Shown here piece by piece: positions 11,102 to 12,655 of a stretch of DNA of 64,000 nucleotides (position 1 is its first letter; each line of letters starts with the position of its first letter). A program made the translations under genes and the position numbers. Source of the stretch: Brasilonema angustatum HA4187-MV1 (GTDB lineage Bacteria > Cyanobacteriota > Cyanobacteriia > Cyanobacteriales > Nostocaceae); contig JAHHGV010000015.1 in NCBI GenBank assembly GCA_019359695.1, forward strand, positions 62,001 through 126,000, in the 5' to 3' direction. Below the pieces are notes generated by a model. That model saw only the letters and a list, made by a program, of their open reading frames with translations, was not told where the DNA came from and did no database searches.

Positions 11102-11237
11102 AATGTTACAAAAAGATTGTAATAATAACCACAAATATCTGATATATGTACTACAAGTACAAGAATCAGAACCTTTTCCTAACACTTAGGAAACCCAGTA
11201 CCAAGCCCAGAAATTTAACAAACCCAGGAGAACTGTT

Positions 11238-11537
11238 ATGAACCATCCCTTTGGTCTAGATGTTTCAGATTTAGAAGCAATAGAACTCAATTTTGAAGAG
11301 GAGCTCAATGACGAAGAGGCTGCTCAAGTCTTAGGTGGATCGGGTAAATTCACCACTGAAGCTGTTGGTGAAGAAGGAGGGACAGTCACCAGTCTATCTA
11401 TAGGTGAAGAAGGAGGAGGAGGGATACAATGTATTTCTGCCCCCTGTCCAGGAAGTGAAGGAGGAGGCAATCCACCCACAAAGCCTCCAGTGACCAAAGC
11501 TCGGTTTTTTGAAAGTGGTGGTTCCATTTTTTGGTAG
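11238..11537 (+). CDS. Plesiocin-type graspetide precursor peptide
   Basis: A 99-residue RiPP precursor. The leader (about 1-34) is acidic and Leu-rich and ends in the double-glycine-type stretch LNDEEAAQVLGG. The core follows with two copies of a TTxxxxEE-like motif: TTEAVGEE at residues 39-46 and TSLSIGEE at 51-58, each followed by GG. In plesiocin, an ATP-grasp enzyme links Thr hydroxyls to Glu carboxylates of TTxxxxEE to make hairpin-like bicycles; by analogy two such rings are expected here. After the core come a two-Cys Gly-rich segment (CISAPC) and a tail ending TKARFFESGGSIFW. A ribosome site AGGAGA precedes the ATG. The ATP-grasp gene starts 212 bp downstream. Name of the product unknown. 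Confidence 0.8.
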   Translation: MNHPFGLDVSDLEAIELNFEEELNDEEAAQVLGGSGKFTTEAVGEEGGTVTSLSIGEEGGGGIQCISAPCPGSEGGGNPPTKPPVTKARFFESGGSIFW

Positions 11538-11749
11538 CCTCGTTAATTTGAAGTTTAAAGGCACGACTGGCTGAAAACTCAACGCAATCACTGCACGCCT
11601 AAGACAAAAGGCACTTTAGTAATTGACTGAAAAACGATTTCAGTTCAAATTTACATACCGTATAGTTTCAGCACTTTGCTCGAAAGTGCTGAAACTTATT
11701 GCTGTGAAATCTATTTGATTTTCGGACTTATTAAAACCGCAAATTTAAA

Positions 11750-12655
11750 ATGAACATTTTAATCTTGGGCAATTCTTTAGATGCTCATGCTGCCCATCTG
11801 AAGAATGCCCTTACAGATGCTGGTGCGACGGTAAATTATTTCGATACTCAGCTATTTCCAACACAATTAAGGATGTCTTGGAGACCTGATACAAAGGTGG
11901 GATCTTTAGCTCTATCTGAAGAATATCAATTAAATTTCCAAGATATTCATAGTATATTTTGGCGTAACTTTTCCGGCATTCACGTTCCACAGTTAAAAGA
12001 CTCAAATCAACAGTATGTTGCATTTAATGATTCAATGAGTACACTGCGCTCATTAATCCAGGCTTGTCCATGTCATTGGGTTAATTCTTGGCAAGCATAC
12101 CAGTTTCATAAAGAAAAACCTCTACAACTTAGCAAAGCCCAAGAAATAGGAGTGACAATTCCAGCTACTTTGATTAGTAATCATCCAGGAGAAATTACAG
12201 AATTTGTTCAAACACATGAAAAAGTTATTTTTAAACCAGTTTATGGTGGTGCTCATACCCAGTTTTTGACACAAGAACATTTAGAACCAAAGAGATTGAA
12301 CTTAGCTTTGAGTCTTTCTCCAGTCACACTACAAGAGTATATTCCTGGGACAAATATTCGTAGCTATGTTATTGGAGAATCAGTTTATTCTGCTGAAATT
12401 CGCAGTCATGCTGTAGATTTTCGCGAAGATTTGGATGCTGAGTTAATTCCGAAAGAGTTGCCAGAATCAATTCAACAACAATGTTTAGCAATAGCAAAGG
12501 CATTTATGTTAGAGTGGACTGCGATTGACTGGCGTTGTAAACCAAACGGTGAGTATATATTTTTAGAAGCAAACCCCAGTCCGATGTTTATACATTTTGA
12601 AAATCAGACTGGTTTTCCTATTACACAAAAATTAGTCAATATCTTGATGAATTAA
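11750..12655 (+). CDS. ATP-grasp graspetide synthetase (MvdD/PsnB-like)
   Basis: A 301-residue ATP-grasp ligase expected to form omega-ester or amide links in the preceding peptide. The N-terminus MNILILGNSLDAHAAHLKNA is a Rossmann-like preATP-grasp region and the stretch IFWRNFSGIHVPQ resembles the same region of microviridin ligases. ATP-grasp features follow: IGVTIPATLISNHP, the nucleotide lysine in KVIFKPVYGG (about 158-167), the acidic hinge TLQEYIPGTNIRSYVIG, and the metal-binding TAIDWR...FLEANPSPMF near the C-terminus. Only one ligase is present, as in plesiocin loci, rather than the MvdC/MvdD pair of microviridins. No transporter or leader peptidase gene is adjacent. Confidence 0.82.
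   Translation: MNILILGNSLDAHAAHLKNALTDAGATVNYFDTQLFPTQLRMSWRPDTKVGSLALSEEYQLNFQDIHSIFWRNFSGIHVPQLKDSNQQYVAFNDSMSTLRSLIQACPCHWVNSWQAYQFHKEKPLQLSKAQEIGVTIPATLISNHPGEITEFVQTHEKVIFKPVYGGAHTQFLTQEHLEPKRLNLALSLSPVTLQEYIPGTNIRSYVIGESVYSAEIRSHAVDFREDLDAELIPKELPESIQQQCLAIAKAFMLEWTAIDWRCKPNGEYIFLEANPSPMFIHFENQTGFPITQKLVNILMN

Follow-up and report, generated by a model that had tools for sequence, protein, structure and literature searches.

In a 64,000-nucleotide stretch of the Brasilonema angustatum HA4187-MV1 genome (hereafter the window; C76:62001-126000 in the 8.5 Mb genome G000), we identified a two-gene locus that quite probably encodes a plesiocin-type (group 2) graspetide, that is, a peptide predicted to receive nested esters under guidance of a leader, to be cleaved after Gly-Gly and to act as a multi-headed inhibitor, where chemistry, connectivity, cleavage, export and activity are all read from the genes. 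We place the locus in this type because of the ligase match, the position of the ligase on the PsnB branch, the selection acting on the ligase gene, and the leader and units shared by its relatives. A first-pass annotation of the same DNA had described, at 11238-12655, a leader ending in GG, the motifs TTEAVGEE and TSLSIGEE with starts 12 residues apart, and one ATP-grasp ligase, and all of these were recovered here; its proposal of a plesiocin-type graspetide made by a single ATP-grasp synthetase is well supported by profiles, fold, trees and relatives.

Locus layout and core units of the precursor

The precursor gene (11238..11537, plus strand) encodes 99 amino acids, and a Shine-Dalgarno-like AGGAG (11226..11230, plus strand) lies upstream of its ATG at 11238; AGGAGAACTGT at this site is retained in 5/5 Brasilonema-type loci. 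The gene for the 301-aa ATP-grasp graspetide synthetase (11750..12655) follows on the same strand after a gap of 212 bases, within which a hairpin with a 14-pair stem (11664..11696, plus strand; fold z −5.35) recurs at the corresponding place in 5/5 Brasilonema-type loci and may set the precursor-to-enzyme ratio. By Pfam, the four flanking genes encode a pyridoxamine-phosphate oxidase, a cyclase (PF04199), a DUF3153 protein and a TPR protein, among which there is no evident pathway link and no exporter or protease, as the first-pass annotation had also stated. A whole-genome scan for Peptidase_C39 gave no match in the window and 13 elsewhere, and the sole match on the window's contig, ~15.3 kb upstream of the precursor and outside the window, scores 33 bits vs. 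a family cut-off of 22. NHLM-type transporters are described as highly co-occurring with group 2 graspetides (excerpt of PMC13097080); we found none near the locus, and the co-occurrence is a tendency, not a defining trait of the group. A plasmid collection searched with the precursor gave no match.

The leader (residues 1-34; 11238..11339, plus strand) runs from an HPFxL motif to GG, ending in LGG, and its residues H3, P4, F5, L7, L17 and G33 are invariant in 19/19 aligned precursors. It is followed by core unit 1, TTEAVGEE (11352..11375, plus strand), and core unit 2, TSLSIGEE (11388..11411, plus strand). Plesiocin core repeats have the form TTxxxxEE, and the precursor holds two such units, with Thr/Ser donors behind a leader and ahead of Glu/Asp acceptors, the order given for graspetide cores (excerpt of PMC7823629). 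Among the 565 stop-to-stop frames of at least 40 aa in the window, [TS][TS]x4EE occurs in the precursor frame only, in two copies; in 200,000 shuffles of the precursor's own core, at least one [TS][TS]x4EEGG arose 280 times and at least two never arose (0/200,000), so that the unit pair is beyond chance. No Pfam family covers the precursor, and NCBIfam matched it only below threshold, to thiopeptide and lantibiotic models, an identity that was rejected.

We then surveyed the precursors of related loci (denoted L), from which exact duplicates were removed (74 to 54 precursors). In 52 of 54 distinct precursors we identified 138 TTxxxxEE-type units; the search itself sets positions 1, 2, 7 and 8 as donors and acceptors, and T, T, E and E dominate there. 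Positions 4 and 6, which the search pattern leaves unconstrained, were Ala in 129 and Gly in 134 of the 138 units, position 5 was mostly L, V or I, and position 3 was the most variable (L 64, Q 16, Y 16, M 15, others); it is E and L in the window's two units, and successive units of a Calothrix precursor have Q,R,Y,Y,R,Y,Q there. Ser stands at position 2 in 4/138 units, which makes a Ser ester in the second unit more likely than a dead unit. Spacing between unit starts ranged from 11 to 41 in relatives: the spacing of 12, earlier proposed as a check, recurs in many precursors and is not fixed, and what the relatives conserve is the motif rather than the spacing. The first precursor filter excluded ORFs >300 aa; adding 8 precursors that it missed and removing L070, which has no leader, gave a set of 61, of which 57 carry a full unit.

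The precursor resembles that of plesiocin in that a single ATP-grasp enzyme accompanies TTxxxxEE repeats and hairpin bicycles are expected, the plesiocin product being described as ring-within-ring hairpins (excerpt of PMC13097080) with two esters per repeat (excerpt of PMC12291112). At the level of the units, this likeness lies in the motif TTxxxxEE alone: unlike plesiocin, the units of the window's family are flanked by GG and have A at position 4 and G at position 6, and the window precursor has extra Cys and tail units and no adjacent transporter. PDB sequences searched with the precursors yielded no plesiocin precursor chain.

The Cys unit and the tail unit

Two segments follow the full units: CISAPCPGSE (11430..11459, plus strand), with a candidate Ser67-Glu74 link and a candidate Cys65-Cys70 pair, and the tail TKARFFES (11493..11516, plus strand), with a candidate Thr86-Glu92 link. 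The first-pass annotation had set both aside as unlike plesiocin, and they are indeed extra relative to it, but they are conserved in the family. CISAPC[PL]GSE is present in 18/61 precursors (17 identical, one with Leu), with both Cys retained in 18/18, and a K-containing tail-type unit is present in 22/61, by search patterns that did not capture one long ladder (L045) or the tail-type units of L037, L042 and L096. Lineages with the Cys unit include Brasilonema-type and Microcoleus-type ones as well as others, and in L101 and L109 it stands straight after the leader, before any full unit, so that it behaves like a movable element. In a wider search, 12/386 genomes matched the CISAPC unit at E 0.01 or better; the only two strong matches (about 1e-12) were both in known precursors, and the others (E 1e-3 to 1e-2) were rejected as they look like chance.

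When read against GG, SAPCPGSE has Ser at position 1 and Glu at position 8, a pattern that would retain the outer pair without the inner one. In tail-type units, for example YTKAWFEC and ISKAWFEN, T/S stands at 2 and E at 7; among the 23 distinct 8-mers with these residues, two of which are fragments of longer ladders, T/S is found at position 1 in one, E/D at position 8 in six and K at position 3 in 17. The window's own tail has an extra Phe, which places its pair at positions 1 and 7. As a pattern argument, the Cys segment and the ARFF tail would thus fit the frame of half-units, or degenerate units, of TTxxxxEE. Because both are conserved and fit this frame, the earlier estimate of up to two bicyclic rings, although right about the two full units, is probably a minimum that undercounted the region after them.

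Two things weaken the half-unit reading, namely the common ancestry of the tails and several cases that run contrary to it: the L052 ladder is without its first Thr and retains its last Glu, VTQVNDKE and VSDTIGKD keep crossed residues, and the window's tail retains positions 1 and 7. Co-loss of paired residues was rejected as statistical proof of nested pairing because of these cases and because the independent events are too few, and we use it as a hint. There is a sizeable chance, somewhat short of even, that only the two TTxxxxEE units are cyclised and that the Cys unit and tail stay unmodified, for example as a disulfide loop and as a C-terminal handle for ligase or export. Such roles would suit the tail, which in many precursors lies at the C-terminus or close to it and has an aromatic ending, and the Cys unit, with its two constant Cys, is more invariant than a Ser/Glu pair alone needs. 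However, tail-type units can also be internal or arranged in tandem (L048, L041, L136, L137 and L138), and it is T/S and E that are fixed in them, not K.

For comparison, Gra-5 of Glaciecola sp. KUL10, also of group 2, is described as lacking one donor/acceptor set of plesiocin and shows one dehydration, and its authors judged it inefficiently modified (excerpt of PMC9576775); this peptide, compared by description only, is from a pseudomonadote, unlike the cyanobacterial window locus.

The synthetase and its relatives

The ligase carries an MvdD pre-ATP-grasp domain (PF21068) and a RimK domain (PF08443); its best NCBIfam model, TIGR04187, is below cut-off, and TIGR00768 (RimK) matches also. 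In a Foldseek search with its AlphaFold model (mean pLDDT 93.5), the best 50 rows are headed by chains of MdnC, which is top, and PsnB (TM by query 0.81-0.87), with CdnC, AMdnB, PruB and MdnB within the first 32 and RimK-type ligases after. Profiles, scores and fold thus identify a graspetide-synthetase-type ATP-grasp ligase. Identity to PsnB is about 25%, and pairwise scores put MdnC slightly closer than PsnB (8.5e-27 vs. 4.4e-25, and 8.6e-36 vs. 4.2e-35 in a second comparison), so that similarity alone does not choose between them. The window ligase and PsnB share a branch in three trees: the ligase clade joined PsnB apart from MdnB, MdnC and CdnC (98/96), and further trees gave the PsnB grouping at 99/98, and at 100/98 once one long row was removed. 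As PsnB is a long branch, we take this placement as good, not final. Alignment A3 excludes the L037 ligase, which has an in-frame stop. Among five Brasilonema-type ligases, dN/dS was 0.09-0.20 in 10/10 pairs, and the gene is therefore in use, under purifying selection.

Microviridins, which are common in cyanobacteria, share the ligase superfamily and fold (MdnB, MdnC), but the window ligase is on a separate branch. The microviridin motifs, PFFARFL in the leader and TxKxPSD in the core (excerpts of PMC8939145 and PMC7823629), are absent from the window precursor. It is quite improbable that the chemistry is microviridin-like, with Lys87 of TKA as a donor and a lactam in the tail: some synthetases do make both esters and amides (excerpt of PMC13097080), tail units often have K at position 3, and MdnC is a near solved structure; however, K is missing in the tail-type units YTEAWFEG and ITDALCED while T and E stay, and the trees set the ligase clade apart. 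Far-fetched, in our view, is a RimK-like ligase that adds Glu or similar to a protein and for which the small ORF is no substrate, since, despite the RimK profiles and the RimK folds lower in the Foldseek list, RimK E-values are worse than those of all macrocyclase chains in the best 50 rows and the ligase repeatedly adjoins precursors with fixed donor and acceptor residues.

A ligase-profile scan of named genomes identified 66 loci, which all carry cyanobacterial titles and are 56-96% identical (96% for Brasilonema sp. CT11 and B. bromeliae, 93% for Scytonema tolypothrichoides). Automatic filtering yielded candidate precursors at 45 of these 66, and inspection added L052 and L053; among the loci without a filter candidate, some are at contig ends or masked and some have long-protein precursors (L077). 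Beside the ligase, the relatives' precursors often share the leader and TTxA[LVI]GEE units. Across 388 genomes sampled evenly from the order, the ligase is present in 55 and the precursor profile in 39, of which 35 have both (overlap counted by hand; hypergeometric P 4e-31, inflated by shared ancestry). The precursor profile occurs without the ligase in G062, G122, G187 and G387, and had no match at threshold in 20 of the 55 ligase genomes; in the host's own genome it matches two places, each adjoining its own ligase. No TTxxxxEE precursor was found at the divergent ligase loci L011 and L012.

Several loci show other arrangements. L138 has two tandem precursors on a contig (G114:C10) distinct from that of the ligase (C26); L010 (G023:C1) holds a broken ligase, a fragment with three in-frame stops; L037 and L103 (G297:C62) show a full-length ligase copy that is interrupted by a single in-frame TGA and adjoins a precursor that looks intact. 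Ligases of L171, L172, L173 and L178, 32-34% identical, are from genomes of about 2 Mb in another class of the phylum, and we would guess that their hosts are gut-type non-photosynthetic cyanobacteria. In L171 an ORF ending YTTMALGEEGG lies beside the ligase; at the others the ligase adjoins frames of 189-192 aa, whose repeats, for example TTLAYPSDDATGG and TKAYPSDDAMG, are reminiscent of the PSD motif of microviridins. Literature searches by motif strings listed unrelated matches, and none of the matches listed for graspetide with cyanobacterial genera, or with non-photosynthetic lineages, contains 'graspetide'.

Mixed registers, embedded repeats and the proposed product

The host genome has a paralogous ligase (G000:C65; L020, L122) that is 66% identical, belongs to the same clade and groups with Rhizonema and Scytonema ligases (99/98). 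Its precursor carries two ATTxYxTAxxGEAAEEGG units, each readable as three nested rungs, and a C39 peptidase ABC transporter lies ~2.8 kb from it (L122). Four alike tandem ORFs at L122:6968-8534, MNALN...ELQDELNDADLM...GGGG, look like another small-peptide family with GG-type leaders. Ladders of the ATTxYxTAxxGEAAEEGG type, plus ETLTAVKWGESGEGG, recur in the precursors of L045, L049, L052 and L053, with a full TTxxxxEE unit in addition in L045, and precursors of Acaryochloris (L072, L075, L076, L078) and Alkalinema (L080) combine TLTAVGPxESGESG with TTxxxxEE-type units; all of these precursors have two or three registers per chain (TTxxxxEE, TxTxxxxxExxE, TTxxxTxxxxExxEE).

Other loci embed the repeats in longer proteins. 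Within about 1 kb of the ligase, L180, L181, L182, L184, L185 and L186 have a 422-496-aa ORF that shows HPF at its start, contains 8-16 repeats and extends into a long C-terminal part, which in L180, L182 and L184 has no Pfam or NCBIfam name. In L183, a frame of 603 aa has Calx-beta domains between the HPF start and 8 repeats; L113 resembles the L180-type ORFs and is cut by the locus end; L077 has a 322-aa frame with 7 repeats. L070 is a fragment of the long repeat-bearing protein type. Compared by description only, the precursors of L180-L186 resemble those of group 15, described as unusually large, and of groups 34 and 35, described as long and repetitive, and because these groups are reported (excerpt of PMC13097080) the embedded-repeat proteins may overlap known groups.

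For the plesiocin-type locus of the window, we propose that the ligase would bind the HPFxL...GG leader and activate Glu side chains with ATP for attack by Thr/Ser hydroxyls, so that each TTxA[LVI]GEE unit would become a hairpin closed by nested esters that join position 2 to 7 and position 1 to 8. Four links would then arise from the two full units, Thr39/Thr40 with Glu45/Glu46 and Thr51/Ser52 with Glu57/Glu58. Tail Thr86-Glu92 and Cys-unit Ser67-Glu74 may each add one link, for which we see about an even chance or a little less; four links are expected and five to six possible, and the core probably forms more than two bicycles. Cys65-Cys70 may be a disulfide. Removal of the leader behind GG would probably fall to a C39-type exporter whose gene lies elsewhere in the genome. 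The product would probably inhibit proteases as a multi-headed molecule in which each hairpin exposes its position 3, presumably as the P1 residue.

Rather more doubtful, though possible, is a mosaic in which one leader and a PsnB-type ligase clade would serve bicycles, inner-only xTKAxFExGG units, outer-only CISAPCPGSE units and, in sister loci, the ladders TTxxxTxxxxExxEE and TxTxxxxxExxE, and in which the 8-16 units in relatives' ~420-600-aa proteins would be macrocycles that are displayed, not released. Should the half-units and mixed registers prove real, a single enzyme would take several ring geometries per chain, and the relatives would be natural single-ring and long-ladder substrates for studying the choice of donor and acceptor. 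The protein-embedded repeats, if real, would be an unusual form of graspetide chemistry, and the variable position 3 suggests a family of multi-headed inhibitors whose specificity may be readable from sequence.
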